Assembly (NCBI GenBank): GCA_002173095.1
Contig: NHBK01000009.1
Coordinates: forward strand, 434,001 to 498,000
DNA length: 64,000 bases
Direction: 5' to 3'
From: Hyphomonadaceae bacterium TMED5
GTDB taxonomy: Bacteria; Pseudomonadota; Alphaproteobacteria; Caulobacterales; Hyphomonadaceae
The notes under the pieces were generated by a model. The model was not told the origin of the DNA. It searched no databases and saw only the letters and a list, made by a program, of their open reading frames with translations. A program made the position numbers and the translations under genes. Of this stretch, positions 19,665 to 28,846 are shown one piece after another; position 1 is the first letter of the stretch, and every line of letters begins with the position of its first letter.

Positions 19665-19809
19665 TCCGCCAATAAAGATTCCTGTTTCTTTCAACTGTTG
19701 GGATGTTTTTCAAAAAGAGAGCGATAACTTTTTCTGGCTCGACTTGAGTGAAGTCCCCTGAGTTTGATATAGCTCACCTCAATAAAATAAAAATATGAGG
19801 GAGGAGGCG

Positions 19810-21888
19810 ATGGCCTTATCTAAACGTACCGCTTTGCTGGCCGCTAGCGCTGTATCAGCGTTTGCACTGGTTTCTTGTTCCGATTCTGGTGCTGAAATGC
19901 ATGGGCAGGCTGATCATGCCTCAATGTCTCATGCCGATCATACCGGACATTCGGGCATGACTATGGCGAGCGCCGAAACCCCTGTCGGCGGCGTTCCTGA
20001 CTATATCGACAATTTTCGGCTGATTGATCAGTTCGGCGAAAGCCATGAGCTGTATTACCATTCCGACGCGCCGGCTGTTGTCATCATGACCCATGGCGTG
20101 GGCTGCCCCATCGTTCGCGGCGCCGTGCCGGACTATGCGGATGTGCGCGATGAGTTCGAGGACGATGGCGTCGTCTTCTATATGATCAACTCAAACATTC
20201 AGGATGACCGGTCAGAAATCGCAGCCGATTCAGAAGAATTTGGAATTGATATCCCGGTTCTGGATGACGTGACCCAGCTGATCGGCGAATCCATGGGGTA
20301 TGACCGCACAGCGCAGGTCTATGTTCTGGACCCGGCGCAGGGATTTAAAGTGGTGTATTATGGCCCGCTGAATGACCGTCAGACCTATGAGCGTCAACGT
20401 AATGAGGCGAATAATCATTATGTGAGCGATGTGCTGACGGCTATGACGCATGGCGAAGACATCACCACAGAGGCGCCTGCTATTCGTGCGGGCTGTATGA
20501 TCAATTTCCCGGAGCGCCAGAACCATACGGAACACATGCAGATTTCCTATTCTGAGGAAATTGCGCCGCTTCTGCGCGATAACTGCGTTGAGTGTCACCA
20601 GGAGGGCGGCATCGGCCCATGGGCCATGACGGATTATGAAACCGTGCAGGGCTGGGCGCTGATGATCCGCGAAGTTATTCGTACCGATCGCATGCCGCCA
20701 TGGCATGCTGACCCGGAAATTGGCAGCTTTCATGGTGATCGGTCTCTCTCTCCGGATGAAATTCAGACACTGGTTCACTGGATTGAAGCTGGCGCGCCGC
20801 GAGGCGAGGGCGAAGACCCGCTGGCCGGACTCAATCTGCATGCTGAAGACTGGCCACTGGGTGAGCCGGATCTTATTCTGACGCTGCCAGCCTATACCGT
20901 ACCGGCCAATGGCGTGGTCGATTACGTCTACCCGGTCGTAGAAAACCCGCTGACGGAAGACAAATGGTTGCGCGCCACAACTATCCGGGCTGGTGCGCGC
21001 GAAGTCGTTCACCACGTCTTGTCTGGTTATATGTCTGAGGTGCCGGAAGATGGTCGTGGATCGACCGGCCTTTGGGAGTTTTCGACCGGTGGCTATGCGG
21101 TTGGCGCGGAATCCGTCATCCAGGCAGAAGGCTCTGGCGTGCCATTCCCGGCAGGCGGCGCCATTGGGTTCCAGACGCATTACACGCCGTATGGGCGCGA
21201 AGTCGAAGATGTCACGCAGATCGGGTTTTACTTTCAGGACCAGCCTGAACTCCTGAACCGGTCAGCAGTTATTCTGGATGCCAGTATTGAAATTCCGCCC
21301 GGCGCAGCGCGTCATACGGAAACCGCCTATATGGAATTCCCATATGACGCGGAACTTCTATACGCCTTCCCGCACGCACACTATCGCGGACACGCATCCA
21401 ATCTGCGTATTCGTTATCCGGATGGCAGTGAGGAAATGCTGCTGTCTCTGCCGCGTTATGACTTTAACTGGCAGCGTGCCTATGAGTGGGAAGAGCCGAT
21501 TACTATTCCGGCGGGCTCAAAGCTCATTGCCGAATATGTCTATGACAACTCCATGGCCAATGTGGCAAACCCTGATCCGGATGTGAATGTCACCTGGGGC
21601 GAGCAGAGCTTTGAAGAAATGCTTTATACGTCGCTCGCCTATCGCTGGGTTGGCGAGACGACGGATAATCGCCTGGATGCGCAGTCAGAGCATATGCAGG
21701 CCTCGCGCTTCTTTACGGCGATGGACGACAATATCGACGGCATGCTGACAGAAGACGAGCTTCGCGGCATTCTGGGCGAGCGTATGCGGGCTGGCTTTGA
21801 TCGTATGGATATGGATGGAGATGGCTCTGTCAGCATGGATGAGTATCTGACAATTCAGCGCATGCGTCAGGCCCGCGGCCAGCAATAG
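19810..21888 (+). CDS. multidomain lipoprotein: redoxin, cytochrome c, monooxygenase-like and EF-hand parts
   Basis: About 692 residues; ATG 19810 follows GGGAGGAGGCG. Lipoprotein signal ending ALVSC, then a His/Met-rich stretch (residues 28-55) that could bind copper. A peroxiredoxin/AhpC-like domain follows (about 60-225; single Cys in THGVGCPIV), then a c-type haem motif CVECH (near 256) with RMPPWH as possible Met ligand, a region like the C-terminal part of copper type II monooxygenases (HHVLSGY near 397, THYTPYG near 457), and two EF-hands at the end (DDNIDGMLTEDE, DMDGDGSVSMDE). Predicted cell-surface or periplasmic redox protein; reaction unknown. Related fusions are annotated in other bacteria as redoxin-family proteins. 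Confidence 0.8.
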   Translation: MALSKRTALLAASAVSAFALVSCSDSGAEMHGQADHASMSHADHTGHSGMTMASAETPVGGVPDYIDNFRLIDQFGESHELYYHSDAPAVVIMTHGVGCPIVRGAVPDYADVRDEFEDDGVVFYMINSNIQDDRSEIAADSEEFGIDIPVLDDVTQLIGESMGYDRTAQVYVLDPAQGFKVVYYGPLNDRQTYERQRNEANNHYVSDVLTAMTHGEDITTEAPAIRAGCMINFPERQNHTEHMQISYSEEIAPLLRDNCVECHQEGGIGPWAMTDYETVQGWALMIREVIRTDRMPPWHADPEIGSFHGDRSLSPDEIQTLVHWIEAGAPRGEGEDPLAGLNLHAEDWPLGEPDLILTLPAYTVPANGVVDYVYPVVENPLTEDKWLRATTIRAGAREVVHHVLSGYMSEVPEDGRGSTGLWEFSTGGYAVGAESVIQAEGSGVPFPAGGAIGFQTHYTPYGREVEDVTQIGFYFQDQPELLNRSAVILDASIEIPPGAARHTETAYMEFPYDAELLYAFPHAHYRGHASNLRIRYPDGSEEMLLSLPRYDFNWQRAYEWEEPITIPAGSKLIAEYVYDNSMANVANPDPDVNVTWGEQSFEEMLYTSLAYRWVGETTDNRLDAQSEHMQASRFFTAMDDNIDGMLTEDELRGILGERMRAGFDRMDMDGDGSVSMDEYLTIQRMRQARGQQ

Positions 21889-22336: not shown

Positions 22337-25300
22337 ATGAAGTCTGTATTGTACTCTTCAGCTGCAATTGCGCAGATCATGCTGGTATCAGCAGCTCTCG
22401 CGCCGGCGCATGCTCAGGAGGTTTCAACTACCGAAATCACAGCATCCGATGAACGTTTGAACCCGCAATGGGGCAATCTGGATTCCTTCTGGGGAAACCT
22501 TGATAGCTTCTGGGGCAATCTGGACAGTTTCGAGGGCGAGGCGTCTGCTCAATGGGGTAATCTGGATTCCTTCTGGGGTAATCTCGACTCGTTCTGGGGC
22601 AACCTCGATAGCTTCTGGGGCAATCTCGACAGTTTCGAAGCCGAAGCCCAGTGGGGCAATCTCGACAGCTTTTGGGGGAATCTGGATTCTTTCTGGGGGA
22701 ACCTCGATAGCTTCTGGGGGAACCTCGACAGCTTTGATGGCGTGGTCGAAACCAATTGGGGCAATCTGGACAGCTTTGATGGCGAGACGACGCCTGAGTG
22801 GGGCAACCTTGATAGCTTCTGGGGCAATCTCGACAGTTTCTGGGGGAATCTGGATAGCTTTGAAGGCGACGCTGACGCAGTGGCGCTGTGGGGCAATCTC
22901 GATAGCTTCTGGGGTAACCTCGACAGTTTCTGGGGCAATCTCGACAGCTTCTATGTCGCGTTTTCTGTTCCTGAAGGCGAAGACCCTGAAACGTATTATG
23001 GTCTGTTAGACCCAAGCTGGGGCAATCTCGACAGCTTCTGGGGTAATCTGGACAGCTTTAACGGCAATCTCGACACCAGCTGGGGCAATCTCGACAGCTT
23101 CTGGGGTAATCTCGATAGCTTCTGGGGCAACCTTGATAGCTTCTGGGGTAATCTCGACAGTTTCTGGGGCAATCTCGATAGCTTCTGGGGCAATCTCGAT
23201 AGTTTCTGGGGCAATCTCGATAGCTTCGATGCGAACACGCAGGCTGATTATGATCAGCTGCTCTTCGACCTCGGCACGCTCTATAATATGAGCCAGGAGC
23301 AGTATGCTCCGCTCGTTGCGTTTTATACCGGCCAGGATTTCTGGTCTGGCTTCGCTCAGGAAATTTTTGAGCGCTATGGTATTGATCCATCCGATCCATC
23401 TTCGCTTGAAGGTCTGACGGCTGAGGAGCGATTCCGCTTTTATATCGACTGGCGCGATGGTCTGATGCAGTTCAACGGCATCGACCGCGTGGATCATTGG
23501 ATGCAGACCATTAACTGGTCTCCGGTTCTGACGCAGGATCACGATTACAATACACAGGCAGTGATCGGTCTTCTGGATTTCGGCATCACTGACGAAACGC
23601 TGCTGACCCATGACGTCATCTATAACGGCGGATATGAGACAGATTCTGAAGACACGCACGGCTCGGCTGTTGTCAGTCTTTTGATCGCGCCGCATGACGG
23701 CTTTGGTGTGATGGGTATCGCGCCAGACGCCAGCGTTGCGGCCTATAACCCGTTCGATGAGACCGGTACGGCCGGTTGGGAAGACGTTGAGACGGGTGTG
23801 AATGAACTCGTCGATAATGGCGCGCGTATCATCAACATGTCTCTTGGTGTGCCAGGTGCGATCCTTTCTGAGGAATGGGCTGGTATTCTGGGCGGTGTTG
23901 TCGCAGACCCTGAAGCGTCCGGTACGGTCTTCATTAAAGCGGCTGGCAATGATGGTGCTGTTCAGAGTGAAGACGTGCTCTGGGATAGTGCTGAAAGCCT
24001 CGAAAACCTGATTATTGTTGGCGCGATTGGCCTGGACGGTGAAATCGCTGAATGGTCCAACACGCCGGGTGATGCCTGTGCCATTATTGATGGTGAGTGC
24101 AATCCGCTCATGTACAACTTCATTGTTGCGCCGGGTGAATTCCTACTCGTGTCTGACGGAGATGGTGGCGTGACGCGTCACTCTGGTACGTCTTTCGCGG
24201 CGCCTCTGGTGTCCGGTACCGCCGCATTGATCCACGGCGCATGGCCATGGTGGAAAGATCATGGCGAAGAAACTGTCGACGTTATCCTTCAGACCGCAAC
24301 GGATCTGGGCGAAGAGGGTGTCGATGAGGTGTATGGCTGGGGTCTTCTCAATGTAGAAGCTGCGCTGTCTCCACTCGACTGGGAAAATCTCCGCTTCTAT
24401 TTTGACCGTAATGGTAATGGCCATGTGAATAGCGGCAAAAGCGCTGACTGGATCCGTCGTGCTTATATGCGGTCCGATGTTGTTCAGCTCGAAGACAATG
24501 GCGCTTATGTTGTTGCGCTTGAGGCTGTCGGTGACACCTTCCGTGACTTCCGCATTCCGCTGTCTACGCAACTGTATGGACAGGAATCTGTCGTGCGTCG
24601 TCTCGACAATGACCGCCTGTTCCAGCGCCACCTCCATCAGCGTTTTGTTGACTGGGCGACGGCTGGTTCCAGCTTTGGTGACGTTCAGAGCTATGAATCC
24701 CGTCTTGGTTTGAATGGTGACTGGGCGCTTGCCATGCACGCTGCGCCATATGCGCCGGGCACAGATGTTCGCGAAGGTCAGCTTCCATTCCAGACCGACC
24801 TGGTTCTGTCTGCTCCGGAAAGCCAGACTGAATTCCGCATTGGTCATGGTGATGGCGCTGCCCGCCTGAATGCCAGCCCGGTTTTCGGTTTCTATTCTGA
24901 CTTCAATGTCGAGACAGGTGGTGTGAACCCGCTGCTCGGATTGGCGTCTGGTGGTACTTACGCGTCCACGAGCTTTGCGATTAATGAGCGTCTCTCCATC
25001 ACGGCGAGCGTTACGGAAACCTCAGACGATCACTCCTATATTGATCCGATTACCGCTCAGCGCGTGTATGAAGACAATGGCATCACCGAGTTTGCCGCCA
25101 GCGCAGCGAATGTCTCCATGTCTTATGCGATGACAGACACTGTTCGCATTAGCATGGATTACACTCAGCTTCAGGAACGTGACAGTCTTCTGGGCGGTCA
25201 GGGCTCTGGCGTGTTCTCACTCGAAGGCGGTGCTGTCACGGATGCAGTGACCTTCGCATCTGACTTTGCTTTGCCAGCGAATTTCAGCCTCGCACTTTCT

Positions 25301-25717
25301 GCGACTATGGGTGAAACGCGCGCAACTGGCTTTGCAGATGGACCTCTGCGTCTGTCTGATGAAGGTGTGACGTCTTCAGCATTCGCGATTGGTCTGCGCC
25401 GCGATGGTCTGTTGTCAGATACGGACATTGTCCGGGTCACACTGGCCCAGCCTCTGCGTGTTGAAAGCGGTAGCTTTGAATATTCGGCGCTGGAAGTTAT
25501 TGACCGTGAAACCGGCGAACTTGGCATTGTGACCCAGAATTGGGGCATTGCTGATACAGGTCGCGACTTCAATGTCGAGCTCAGCTATGGCGCGCCGATT
25601 ATGGACGGTATGGCCGAAGTGTCAGCGTTCACGCGTGTTGAGGTCGATGAGCGTCCATCGGCGGGTCTCACAGAGCTGGAGCATGCTCTGGGTGCGCGTT
25701 TCGCAATTCGCTATTAA
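22337..25717 (+). CDS. S8 (subtilisin-like) protease with N-terminal WGNLDSF repeats and C-terminal barrel-like region
   Basis: 1126 residues. Signal peptide 1-26 (cut after AHAQ). Residues 45-297 carry 27 perfect WGNLDSF heptads plus one variant (NGNLDTS), in eight blocks of 1-7 copies split by short acidic linkers and one longer 22-residue linker. Residues about 400-660 form a subtilase domain with Asp414 (LLDFGI), His441 (DTHGSAV), Asn538 (AAGND) and Ser619 (GTSFAAP), so activity is likely. Residues about 760-1126 are rich in alternating beta-like strands and end FAIRY; a terminal aromatic residue suits an autotransporter-type outer-membrane barrel. Expected on the cell surface or released. 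Function of the repeats is unknown. Confidence 0.88.
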   Translation: MKSVLYSSAAIAQIMLVSAALAPAHAQEVSTTEITASDERLNPQWGNLDSFWGNLDSFWGNLDSFEGEASAQWGNLDSFWGNLDSFWGNLDSFWGNLDSFEAEAQWGNLDSFWGNLDSFWGNLDSFWGNLDSFDGVVETNWGNLDSFDGETTPEWGNLDSFWGNLDSFWGNLDSFEGDADAVALWGNLDSFWGNLDSFWGNLDSFYVAFSVPEGEDPETYYGLLDPSWGNLDSFWGNLDSFNGNLDTSWGNLDSFWGNLDSFWGNLDSFWGNLDSFWGNLDSFWGNLDSFWGNLDSFDANTQADYDQLLFDLGTLYNMSQEQYAPLVAFYTGQDFWSGFAQEIFERYGIDPSDPSSLEGLTAEERFRFYIDWRDGLMQFNGIDRVDHWMQTINWSPVLTQDHDYNTQAVIGLLDFGITDETLLTHDVIYNGGYETDSEDTHGSAVVSLLIAPHDGFGVMGIAPDASVAAYNPFDETGTAGWEDVETGVNELVDNGARIINMSLGVPGAILSEEWAGILGGVVADPEASGTVFIKAAGNDGAVQSEDVLWDSAESLENLIIVGAIGLDGEIAEWSNTPGDACAIIDGECNPLMYNFIVAPGEFLLVSDGDGGVTRHSGTSFAAPLVSGTAALIHGAWPWWKDHGEETVDVILQTATDLGEEGVDEVYGWGLLNVEAALSPLDWENLRFYFDRNGNGHVNSGKSADWIRRAYMRSDVVQLEDNGAYVVALEAVGDTFRDFRIPLSTQLYGQESVVRRLDNDRLFQRHLHQRFVDWATAGSSFGDVQSYESRLGLNGDWALAMHAAPYAPGTDVREGQLPFQTDLVLSAPESQTEFRIGHGDGAARLNASPVFGFYSDFNVETGGVNPLLGLASGGTYASTSFAINERLSITASVTETSDDHSYIDPITAQRVYEDNGITEFAASAANVSMSYAMTDTVRISMDYTQLQERDSLLGGQGSGVFSLEGGAVTDAVTFASDFALPANFSLALSATMGETRATGFADGPLRLSDEGVTSSAFAIGLRRDGLLSDTDIVRVTLAQPLRVESGSFEYSALEVIDRETGELGIVTQNWGIADTGRDFNVELSYGAPIMDGMAEVSAFTRVEVDERPSAGLTELEHALGARFAIRY
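22469..23227 (+). repeat. 21-bp tandem repeats encoding WGNLDSF
   Basis: 27 exact heptapeptide copies and one degenerate copy. The DNA units differ at synonymous sites (GGC/GGG/GGT, AAT/AAC, CTG/CTC/CTT, GAT/GAC, and Ser as TCC, TCG, TCT, AGC or AGT), so the peptide is conserved although the DNA has drifted. Longest uninterrupted run: seven copies at 23081-23227. Confidence 0.97.
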
Positions 25718-25899: not shown

Positions 25900-28389
25900 A
25901 TGCTGACCAGGTTCAGGCAAATCATTGTTCTTGGCTGCCTGTTCACAACATTGGGCGGTGCTTCTGCCTATGCGCAGAATTCTGGTCCAATCCTTCCTTC
26001 CGAAACAGCACAATCAGAGAACTGGTCGGTTTTTGATCAGGATATTGCGGCGGCTAAAGACGCTATGCTTGGCGATCCGATGGAAGCCCTTCGCATGGCA
26101 CAGGAAGCTGAAGCGCACATTCCTCCGAATGCTGCTCTCGATGAGCGGTCCACGGCTCTGGCTACGACGCTATGGCTACAGGCTGAAGCCTTGGGGCGCA
26201 GCAATCAGGCCGATGAAGCCAGGCCTCTCGTCGAACAGGCGCTTGGTCTGATTGATGGAATTGAGCAAACGACGACACTTCGCGGTGATCTGTTGCTGGT
26301 GCAGGGGCGGATCGCTCATGCCGTAGGTGACACACAGCTGGCGTTTGAAAGCTTTCTCGGCGCCCATGAAGAGTTCCGCTTGCAGGGCGCACGGCGCGGT
26401 CAGGCCATTGCCCTCCAGAAAATTGGCGACATTTACAGCGATGCACGCGATTTCGAGCGCGCAATCTCCAACTATGATGAATCTATCCGGGTGTATGATC
26501 AGGAACCCGGCGTGAATATGGTGACCCAGAATAACCGCGCGAATGCGTTGCGCGGCCTGGAGCAGTATGACGAGGCAGAAGAGCATTATCGCGCGGCGCT
26601 GGATATCGCGCGGACCCTGAACTCGCCTTATCTCATTGCGCGTATTCTTACCAATATTGCGCATACTCAGGTGTTAAACGGCGATTTTGAAGATGCCGAG
26701 GCGACCGCTGATGAGGGGCTCGCCCTTTTCCCTGAAGGTCAAAGTTCTGGCTGGGAGCCCTTCTTATGGGGCGTGAAAGCGGAAGTCGCATTTGAGCGCG
26801 GCGATCTGATGAATGCGCGATTGTTTATTACGCGCACGTTTGAAGGGCAGGACCTTTCTGAAACACTTATGCCGTATCGCGAAATGCACGATACGGCGTA
26901 CAGGATCTATCAGTCGATTGGCCGGTCTGATCTGGCGCTGCCGCATTTGGAGGCGTTTAAGCGCCTTGGCGACGAGGCGCTGGGGCTGGCCGCGTCTGCC
27001 AATTCGGCCCTCATGGCTGCGCAGTTTGATTTTACCAATCAGGAGCTTGCCATTGAGCAGCTGGAGCGTGAGCAGCTCCAACAACAAATCCAGATTGCTG
27101 AGTCAGATGCGCGCCAGCGTTTGATCATCTTTGGTTTCACTGCAGCTGGTGCCTTGCTGATCTTTGCCTTCCTGATTGCGGGCTATGTTTCCATGCGCCG
27201 CAGCCGGGATGCGATTGGTCGGGTCAATGACCGTTTGAATGATACCAACCAGCAGCTTGAAAAAGCCAACCGTGCGAAGTCTGAATTCCTCGCCACGACG
27301 AGCCATGAAATCCGCACGCCACTCAACGGTATTCTGGGTATGTCGCAGGTCCTGTTGCAGGATAAGGCGCTGTCGCCAGAACTGCGCGACCGGATCAATG
27401 TCGTTCAATCTGCCGGTAAGTCCATGAAAGCGATCGTGGATGACCTGCTGGATGTGGCGAAAATTGAAACGGGCAAGGTCACCATCACTAAGGCGCGCTT
27501 CGATGTGCATGAGTTGTTCCGTGAAGTGGCAACGCTCTGGCAAGCCGAAGCCGAAACAAAACAGCTGACGCTGAGTATCGACCTTGATGATTGTCCGCAA
27601 TTCATCGTCACGGACGAACAGCGTCTGCGCCAGATCCTGTTCAACCTCCTGTCCAATGCGGTCAAATTTACAGAGACCGGAACAGTGTCGGTACGTGCCT
27701 GGGCGCATGAGGCCGAGGGCACGGACGATGTGTTCGCGTTGGAAGTGCGCGATACCGGTATCGGCATTGCTGAGGAAGAACAGGAGAATATCTTCAAGCC
27801 ATTCCATCAGGTTGATGGCGCCATGACGCGCAAATATGCAGGCACAGGGCTTGGTCTGTCGATTTGTGAGAATTTTGTAACTGCCCTTGGCGGGCAAATC
27901 AGCGTTGAAAGTTCACCGGGGCAAGGTTCCGTTTTTGCCGTGTCATTCCCGGTTGAGGGGATTGAGCGGCCTCAAGAGCTGGCTACTGAGCCTGAGGCAT
28001 CTGAAGCGCTAGCCTGGCACGAACTCACATCTGTTCATGATGCGAACGTTCTGATCTTTCAGGATGACTTCATGCAGAAAATGATTTTTGAAGCATACTT
28101 CAGTGATGAAGTGGCCAAAGCCTGCGTGACTGACAATGAAGACGATTTCCAGAAGGAAATTCAGTCGGGGATATACCATTTTGCCATTCGACCAGATGGT
28201 GAAGCCGGCCCTGCAGAGGCGGAAAATACGCGCCAGATTATTTGGAAAATTGAAGCAGCCAGAGGTGAAAATGACCCCGAGGAGTACGAACCGGAAAACA
28301 TCTTTTCTTTTGTGAAAGAGCTGGTTGATCAGTCGAAAACTTCAGCAGATTCAAATTCTCCACAGAATTCCTTGAATTCGGTAGCTTAG
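25900..28389 (+). CDS. sensor histidine kinase with periplasmic TPR region and pseudo-receiver tail
   Basis: 829 residues. Signal-like segment (1-25), then about 370 residues of TPR-type helical repeats (for example RRGQAIALQKIGDIYSDARD and EQYDEAEEHYRAALDIART), a membrane segment near 406-430, HisKA with SHEIRTPLNGILG (His469), and HATPase with NLLSNAVKFTE, DTGIGI and GTGLGLSI. Residues about 700-800 look like a receiver that has lost its phosphoacceptor (FQDDF acidic pair kept, FAIRPDG where strand 3 Asp should be). The TPR part probably senses a periplasmic protein. A single-domain response regulator follows after an intrinsic terminator. Confidence 0.88.
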   Translation: MLTRFRQIIVLGCLFTTLGGASAYAQNSGPILPSETAQSENWSVFDQDIAAAKDAMLGDPMEALRMAQEAEAHIPPNAALDERSTALATTLWLQAEALGRSNQADEARPLVEQALGLIDGIEQTTTLRGDLLLVQGRIAHAVGDTQLAFESFLGAHEEFRLQGARRGQAIALQKIGDIYSDARDFERAISNYDESIRVYDQEPGVNMVTQNNRANALRGLEQYDEAEEHYRAALDIARTLNSPYLIARILTNIAHTQVLNGDFEDAEATADEGLALFPEGQSSGWEPFLWGVKAEVAFERGDLMNARLFITRTFEGQDLSETLMPYREMHDTAYRIYQSIGRSDLALPHLEAFKRLGDEALGLAASANSALMAAQFDFTNQELAIEQLEREQLQQQIQIAESDARQRLIIFGFTAAGALLIFAFLIAGYVSMRRSRDAIGRVNDRLNDTNQQLEKANRAKSEFLATTSHEIRTPLNGILGMSQVLLQDKALSPELRDRINVVQSAGKSMKAIVDDLLDVAKIETGKVTITKARFDVHELFREVATLWQAEAETKQLTLSIDLDDCPQFIVTDEQRLRQILFNLLSNAVKFTETGTVSVRAWAHEAEGTDDVFALEVRDTGIGIAEEEQENIFKPFHQVDGAMTRKYAGTGLGLSICENFVTALGGQISVESSPGQGSVFAVSFPVEGIERPQELATEPEASEALAWHELTSVHDANVLIFQDDFMQKMIFEAYFSDEVAKACVTDNEDDFQKEIQSGIYHFAIRPDGEAGPAEAENTRQIIWKIEAARGENDPEEYEPENIFSFVKELVDQSKTSADSNSPQNSLNSVA

Positions 28390-28458: not shown

Positions 28459-28468
28459 TTACGTGCCC

Positions 28469-28846
28469 ATGAAAATTCTTTTCGTTGAAGACGATCCGAT
28501 GAATCGCAGAGTGGTGAAAGAAATGCTCACCGCCGCGAAAATCGAGATGCATGAGGCCGAGAACGGTCCCGTGGGTCTTCAGATGATTGAAGATGGCGAT
28601 TACGACCTGATCCTCATGGACCTTCGTATGCCGGGCATGGATGGTATGGAGGCCATACGCCACATTCGCGAACGCAGTGATGAGAAGGGTAAAATCCCGA
28701 TTATTGTGGTAACGGCTGATACGGCGCTGAACCTTCGTGGCCAATGTCTGGAACAAGGCGCGGATGAGTTCCTCATCAAGCCCGTCGAAGTGCGCGCGCT
28801 GTTTGAAACCATCGCTTACACGATTGCGAAGCATAAAAAGAAATAA
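28469..28846 (+). CDS. single-domain response regulator
   Basis: About 125 residues, a receiver domain only: acidic pair EDD (residues 7-9), phosphoacceptor Asp in LILMDLRMPGMDG (about 54), Thr in VVTADTA and Lys in FLIKPV. Resembles DivK/CpdR-like or phosphorelay receivers. GTG 28463 and ATG 28469 are both possible starts and neither has a clear ribosome site. It probably takes phosphate from the kinase 80 bp upstream, whose own C-terminal receiver is defective. Confidence 0.9.
   Translation: MKILFVEDDPMNRRVVKEMLTAAKIEMHEAENGPVGLQMIEDGDYDLILMDLRMPGMDGMEAIRHIRERSDEKGKIPIIVVTADTALNLRGQCLEQGADEFLIKPVEVRALFETIAYTIAKHKKK

Follow-up and report, generated by a model that had tools for sequence, protein, structure and literature searches.

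A heptad-repeat subtilase and its neighboring TPR sensor kinase as a candidate peptide signaling pair in Alphaproteobacteria

In Gram-positive bacteria, systems such as AgrCD and ComCDE join a peptide signal to a linked kinase and regulator; pherotypes switch, and both the signal and the sensor region are hypervariable. In fungi, secreted precursors of the alpha-factor type carry several copies of the peptide with spacers between them and are cut by the subtilisin-like protease Kex2. To our knowledge, peptide signaling of the type considered here is not known in Gram-negative bacteria. The fungal pheromone precursor genes are treated in PMC10182648. For Phr precursors, as many as 8 copies of a single pheromone have been reported (PMC11343458), and a passage of the same paper cites processing of the CSF pheromone by subtilisin, Epr, and Vpr. 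In a passage of PMC10075063, peptide signaling through TPR receptors is described for Bacillota, and the signals of Pseudomonadota are considered to be small molecules that enzymes produce.

Here, we analyzed a stretch of 64,000 nucleotides (the window) from the genome of a Ponticaulis-like alphaproteobacterium, in which a subtilase headed by a heptad array is followed by a sensor kinase. We judge the chances to be slightly better than even that such genes represent an undescribed class of peptide pheromone in Gram-negative Alphaproteobacteria, in which a self-maturing multi-copy precursor would be read by a TPR sensor kinase and many mutually exclusive "languages" would come about through joint replacement of array and sensor. 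None of the PMC papers searched, a set without subscription papers and preprints, describes the heptad or the gene pair.

The heptad array and the protein that carries it

The array lies near the N terminus of a large protein with the following features, numbered by window position.

22337..25717, + strand: repeat-subtilase ORF of 1126 aa, comprising signal peptide, heptad array, helical domain, S8 protease, and beta-rich C-terminal domain
22337..22414, + strand: predicted Sec signal peptide, residues 1-26 (...APAHA|Q), from the sequence; hydrophobic window at residues 3-22, with homologue N termini alike
22469..23227, + strand: 27 WGNLDSF units, grouped into 8 blocks by linkers made of degenerate units, from the sequence; proposed multi-copy ligand
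23228..23542, + strand: helical domain separating the array from the protease and ending at residue 402, from the AlphaFold2 (AF2) model; good confidence from about residue 275
23561..24376, + strand: S8 subtilase domain, residues 409-680, with motifs LLDFG, THGSAV, and GTSFAAP (Asp/His/Ser)
24386..25714, + strand: C-terminal domain, ending ...ARFAIRY; the stretch from residue 874 onward to the C terminus has ~12-13 long beta strands (DSSP of the AF2 model)

A preliminary description of this DNA had counted 27 perfect WGNLDSF heptads at 22469-23227, in blocks of 1-7, and a recount returned the same numbers, with block sizes of 3, 4, 4, 1, 3, 3, 2, and 7. The synonymous codon scatter that it reported, with Ser as both TCN and AGY, is also borne out: 21 of the 27 copies are distinct as DNA (mean 3.35 differences per 21 nt), AGY encodes Ser in 23 copies and TCN in the other 4, and all four Gly codons are in use. 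Its view that selection at the protein level holds the heptad was, in our judgment, right. Its short linkers do separate the blocks, but they proved to be 5-22 aa long and mostly of about 7 aa with Gly at position 2 (EGEASAQ, DGVVETN, NGNLDTS), which marks them as degenerate units. In the whole genome (3.55 Mb, 27 contigs), no further WGNLDSF copy was found outside the array.

The domain neighboring the array is a subtilase, as had been proposed. The S8 domain is the only Pfam match of the protein (PF00082, residues 430-669, E=1.3e-33), the AlphaFold2 model, built from 39 sequences, contains the subtilisin fold (Z ~31.9 to subtilisins), and the triad D414, H441, and S619 is invariant in these 39 sequences. 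By fold and by its Asp/His/Ser triad, then, the repeat-subtilase is a member of peptidase family S8. In the model, the last 3-4 heptad units are drawn as helix at the edge of the helical domain. The C-terminal domain, which has no Pfam match and no PDB sequence match, is suspected from the model to be an autotransporter-like outer-membrane barrel, comparable to the 12-stranded one at the C terminus of type Va autotransporters; a match to the autotransporter family PF03797 is absent in all 39 members, and the EprS model is far below the cut-off. Also in the window, positions 19795-21888 encode a 697-aa secreted protein with AhpC-TSA/redoxin, cytochrome-like, copper monooxygenase C-terminal-like, and EF-hand matches; this protein is duplicated upstream of the array gene in genomes G001, G004, and G006.

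The preliminary description had asked whether homologues lack the repeat in this position or whether the repeats vary freely. We found no full-length homologue without an array, and units are uniform within most arrays and differ between species. In a k-mer count that assumed no motif, each of the 86 homologues whose N-terminal region could be read had a recurrent string (at least 4 residues, at least 3 times). The genus of the window species has WGNLDSF, WGNLDTF, WGSLDTF, and WGDLESF; Maricaulis has GGDINPF (23 copies), Croceibacterium TGFIRAF and TGYIRAF, Sphingomonas quercus WGSVSPF, and Pacificimonas aurantium YGFIIPV (30 copies). Other units are WGEIYAF (G015), WRDIEAF (G026), and DLHIDPL (G048, at least 29 copies), and FWGD-type repeats, mentioned in the preliminary description, do occur in relatives. 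Mixed units occur inside single arrays in Maricaulis and Erythrobacter. One genome, G012, has a second repeat-subtilase (L041, on contig C5) with ~25 [YW]GDISPF units and no kinase nearby, its kinase lying beside the other copy.

The most variable unit positions are 1, 3, and 5, and position 6 is P, A, S, or T in 98%; the conservation of positions 2, 4, and 7 is partly set by the search pattern. At 62 of the 86 loci, the top recurrent string contains [ILV]-x-[PAST]-[FLV], and the Gly-less units DLHIDPL and WRDIEAF still have this pattern in their last four residues. Subtilisins have a P4-P1 preference for which Ala-Ala-Pro-Phe (AAPF) is the textbook substrate, and the end of the unit, as read from the sequences, resembles it.

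The neighboring sensor kinase and its variation with the array

Downstream of the repeat-subtilase are the following features.

25900..28389, + strand: sensor histidine kinase of 829 aa, with signal peptide, TPR sensor, TM at ~406-433, HisKA, HATPase_c, and a degenerate C-terminal region
26026..26724, + strand: TPR segment, residues 43-275, replaced jointly with the heptad in congeners and tracking it over 86 loci; proposed peptide-binding domain
26725..27084, + strand: membrane-proximal TPR segment, residues 276-395, with no tracking of the heptad
28463..28846, + strand: single-domain, CheY-like response regulator, lying downstream of the kinase both in the window and in many relatives

The gene that follows the repeat-subtilase encodes a sensor histidine kinase with HisKA and HATPase_c domains (PF00512, 2.4e-19; PF02518, 1.9e-30) and the H-box SHEIRTP at 468, a partner that the preliminary description had not noticed. 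Its TPR domain, which lies between the signal peptide and the TM, is predicted by position to face the periplasm. The closest Foldseek matches of the TPR model (mean pLDDT 91.5) are TPR superhelices that hold linear peptides, with LGN/Pins-Inscuteable as the best and RapH, Rap-CSF, and phi3T Rap with its pheromone among them, and the TPR profile also matches Rap and kinesin light chain. As modeled, the sensor resembles the peptide-binding type of TPR fold found in Rap and LGN.

In nearly all homologues the TPR kinase gene comes directly after the repeat-subtilase, usually with a receiver next, while the other neighbors differ. The pair is found in Hyphomonadaceae, Maricaulaceae, Parvularculaceae, Caulobacteraceae, and sphingomonads. 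Of 47 named loci, nearly all retain it, and those that do not are mostly contig-truncated. In G015 it is unlinked, with 0.6 Mb between the two genes. The WGEIYAF subtilase gene of this single-contig genome (L045, G015:C1:2353000-2367000) is split over several reading frames, either by decay or by sequencing error. Among 61 relatives, sensor and repeat-subtilase share exactly the same 14 genomes, G015 being one of them. All 27 subtilase-bearing genomes of the Maricaulis family (137 genomes) have the sensor, and 3 more have the sensor only; orphan sensors occur at a contig edge in G922 and as a kinase without an array in G925 and G960. In sphingomonads (398 genomes) the sensor is present in 29/29 subtilase genomes, and a sensor relative is present in 28 further genomes that have no subtilase. 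A repeat-subtilase, then, implies the sensor, and the reverse is true in part only. Most of the examined subtilase-less sphingomonad relatives stand beside an EAL-domain gene. TPR-kinase relatives lie directly behind such genes (c-di-GMP phosphodiesterase-like) at L221, L222, L224, L225, L227, L228, L232, L238, L239, and L244.

The array can also occur without the protease. Two Pacificimonas-like genomes have, as the kinase's partner, a short, predicted-secreted protein composed of a signal peptide and repeats. The repeat gene of G599 lies immediately upstream of the kinase; its product starts with a signal peptide, continues with YGDIIPLNAKG and (YGDIIPLTAEG)n, and reads ...AEGYGDIIPLNA-stop on the far side of an assembly gap. 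In G445, (YGEIIPLTASNG)n precedes one of the kinase copies, which lies where contig C5 ends, and the end of contig C1 holds an array start that comprises a signal peptide and 11 or more units; the repeat gene is probably split between these two contigs. No protease domain is seen in either repeat protein, the arrays being broken by the assembly gap and by the contig ends, respectively. The two sets of repeats differ by D versus E, uniformly in all units. Since these protease-less proteins stand beside the kinase, the array is separable from the protease and tied to the kinase. A small repeat propeptide adjoining the receptor gene is found in these two relatives only; the precursor in the window is a 1126-aa protease. 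Three TPR kinases are encoded in G445, along with a stand-alone YGEIIPL repeat protein, and the subtilase of this genome (L081/L172) combines two unit types, RGVVDPF and YGEIIPL, in one array.

Joint change of array and sensor is clearest between G001, with 29 copies of WGNLDTF, and G006, with 30 of WGNLDSF. After the array the two subtilases are 98% identical in amino acids (third-base identity 0.82), and yet all 29 units of the former have T and all 30 of the latter have S. Synonymous identity of corresponding copies is 0.54, and the 78 matches compare with 74.0 +/- 5.4 for shuffled copies; for G004 versus G006, which share WGNLDSF, it is 0.76. A stepwise S-to-T change with synonymous orthology retained was not seen, and the loss of this orthology indicates that the array was replaced or recombined. 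Simple expansion of a DNA repeat is rejected as well: copies differ at synonymous sites and those of G001 and G006 align no better than shuffled ones, so that recent slippage alone does not account for the uniform peptides. Along 8.5 kb, G001 and G006 are divergent only at the array (nucleotide identity 0.75-0.85) and at kinase residues ~41-270 (0.63-0.81; amino acid identity 0.65-0.85), compared with 0.85-0.98 elsewhere. Between G004 and G006 there is no divergence island at either place. Since the array retains its block layout and its linkers, the likely route of the switch is allelic replacement by recombination. A third mosaic island (L051/L052) covers kinase residues ~681-800 (window ~27940-28300), in the degenerate C-terminal region; there G004 and G006 have amino acid identities of 0.50-0.79, with the rest 90-100% identical, independently of the heptad.

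A second, weaker co-switch is seen in Croceibacterium, where TGFIRAF and TGYIRAF go with a TPR identity of 0.68 against 0.89 for S8. Among close pairs (S8 identity >=0.85 and C-terminal identity >=0.80, leaving out L067 with its truncated array), TPR 43-275 identity is 0.78-0.99 where the unit core is the same (n=18) and 0.68-0.72 where the unit differs (3 pairs, two of which share G001).

Over the 86 loci, unit distance correlates with TPR 43-275 distance when protease, C-terminal, and membrane-proximal TPR distances are controlled for (partial Mantel r = 0.335; 0/500 permutations), a permutation that leaves some shared ancestry in place. Unit distance is not significantly correlated with TPR 276-395 (r = -0.09) or, over all pairs, with the C-terminal domain (r = 0.02), which among close pairs gives a weak signal (r=0.14, p=0.03). 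When the nearest locus by TPR and the nearest by protease are compared, the unit is closer to the TPR neighbor in 21 cases and to the protease neighbor in 9, with 12 ties; the rows are non-independent. Charge complementarity was tried and rejected as an account of this matching: G-x-I-R-[AST]-F units go with TPR Asp174/Glu215 in the expected direction, with two origins on the protease tree, which is too few, and the YGNLRPF and YGIIRPF units (L102, L156) have no such acidic residues. In these sequence comparisons the array and the TPR sensor are strongly supported as a specific, jointly evolving ligand-receptor pair, in which binding itself is what we infer. The joint change of peptide and kinase sensor between species suggests a peptide "language" of signal plus receptor.

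The candidate ligand and the alternatives

We regard it as fairly probable that the array, fused to its own protease, is the precursor of a peptide ligand present in many copies, which a species-matched TPR kinase senses in a pheromone-like manner; cleavage, release, and cell-to-cell signaling of the unit peptide are what we infer. The repeat-subtilase would be exported through its signal peptide, and the fused subtilase or another protease would cut after unit residue 7; the unit end [ILV]4-x5-[PAST]6-[FLV]7 fits the subtilisin P4-P1 preference. Where units are contiguous, free WGNLDSF heptapeptides would result; where a linker intervenes, the product would be extended at its N terminus and unchanged at its C terminus. 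Candidate ligands for the TPR domain are WGNLDSF and the 14-mer EGEASAQWGNLDSF. The peptide may bind the concave face or groove of the exported TPR superhelix (kinase residues ~43-275) and in doing so alter kinase activity and phosphotransfer to the adjacent receiver. High copy number would raise the yield of one peptide, each copy of which must match the receptor, and this would account for identical peptides with scrambled codons and for all copies switching jointly with the receptor. The outcome would be a species- or strain-specific, pherotype-like signal. Several observations sit less easily with the released peptide. If the C-terminal domain is a barrel and exports the N terminus, a peptide of ~840 Da must re-enter the periplasm to reach the TPR domain; specificity must be loose in the mixed arrays of Maricaulis and Erythrobacter; L060 and L062 have a TPR identity of only 0.78 despite a common unit; and the sphingomonads have kinase relatives without any repeat protein, most of those examined being next to an EAL-domain gene.

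The main rival, which we consider unlikely though worth serious weight, is a tethered, cell-intrinsic ligand: unreleased units in the periplasm would bind the TPR domain, binding would end upon export or tail cleavage, and the kinase would monitor its own cell's secretion or surface activity. This accounts equally for linkage and co-evolution, requires no re-import, and suits the beta-strand-rich, possibly barrel-forming C terminus. The two relatives in which only a secreted repeat protein, with neither protease nor C-terminal domain, stands beside the kinase speak against it, and there would be little reason for an assembly sensor to have 20-45 copies of a species-specific unit.

Kin recognition, in which units displayed on the surface, or carried on shed protein, are read by the TPR kinase of neighboring cells of the same type, is improbable. 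Pherotype-like allele replacement between near-identical congeners and the possible autotransporter architecture would fit it, but an intact surface protein cannot reach the predicted periplasmic TPR domain without processing.

More doubtful still is a structural repeat, a beta-solenoid or adhesive passenger with units kept uniform for stacking, for which the period of 7 and the partial retention of Gly at position 2 in the linkers could be cited. Both forms had been put forward in the preliminary description. The solenoid, along with an amyloid reading, is rejected since residues 1-272 have no confident fold (AlphaFold2 pLDDT <50, no solenoid), and the adhesin is likewise not supported; for the structural repeat in either form, it also counts against it that the unit changes with the TPR segment of the adjacent kinase and not with the C-terminal domain of the repeat-subtilase itself. 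Its third suggestion, a pro-region or pseudo-substrate controlling the subtilase, is scarcely tenable: the array is N-terminal to the protease and its unit end is similar to a subtilisin substrate, but a helical domain intervenes, proteins that differ in their units have proteases 98% identical to each other, the heptad co-varies with the kinase TPR sensor rather than with the protease, and in two relatives the repeats occur without a protease.

Comparison with known systems

If the multi-copy ligand and its kinase are a real pair, Gram-negative bacteria own a peptide language that is widespread in marine and soil genera, among them Maricaulis, Erythrobacter, Sphingomonas, Caulobacter, and Phenylobacterium. 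The predicted ligands can be read from the genome and synthesized, and cognate and non-cognate peptides are therefore testable at once.

Parts of this arrangement have counterparts elsewhere. Subtilase autotransporters of the NalP, SphB1, and EprS type likewise have an S8 passenger and a strand-rich C-terminal domain; unlike the present family, they have no repeat array and no kinase partner. LGN/Pins, the best structural match of the sensor, binds extended peptides in the groove of its TPR domain, but it is a eukaryotic cell-polarity adaptor without a kinase, and the likeness is one of fold only. Fungal alpha-factor precursors share with the array a multi-copy, spaced design and a subtilisin-like protease, but in these eukaryotic systems the protease (Kex2) is separate and the receptor is a GPCR. 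AgrCD and ComCDE have the peptide signal, the linked kinase and regulator, and the allele switching in common with the present pair, and differ in their membrane-spanning sensors without TPR and in their small, single-copy precursors without a fused protease.

The nearest relation is to the RRNPPA systems, and to Rap-Phr in particular. As is proposed here, the gene for a secreted precursor lies beside that of a TPR receptor, the peptide is short and linear, and pairs are species-specific; Rap structures match the TPR model of the present kinase. However, the RRNPPA receptor is a cytoplasmic protein of 250-500 aa, whereas here it is a membrane kinase of 829 aa that has a single TM (406-433) and a TPR domain predicted to be exported; the precursor here is fused to its own subtilase and a C-terminal beta domain and carries 5-45 copies; and RRNPPA systems are found in Bacillota, the present pair in Alphaproteobacteria. 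For two reasons the present pair is not a member of RRNPPA, although it would work like Rap-Phr: its receptor sits in the membrane as a kinase that exposes its TPR domain outside the cytoplasm, and its precursor is normally a protease.
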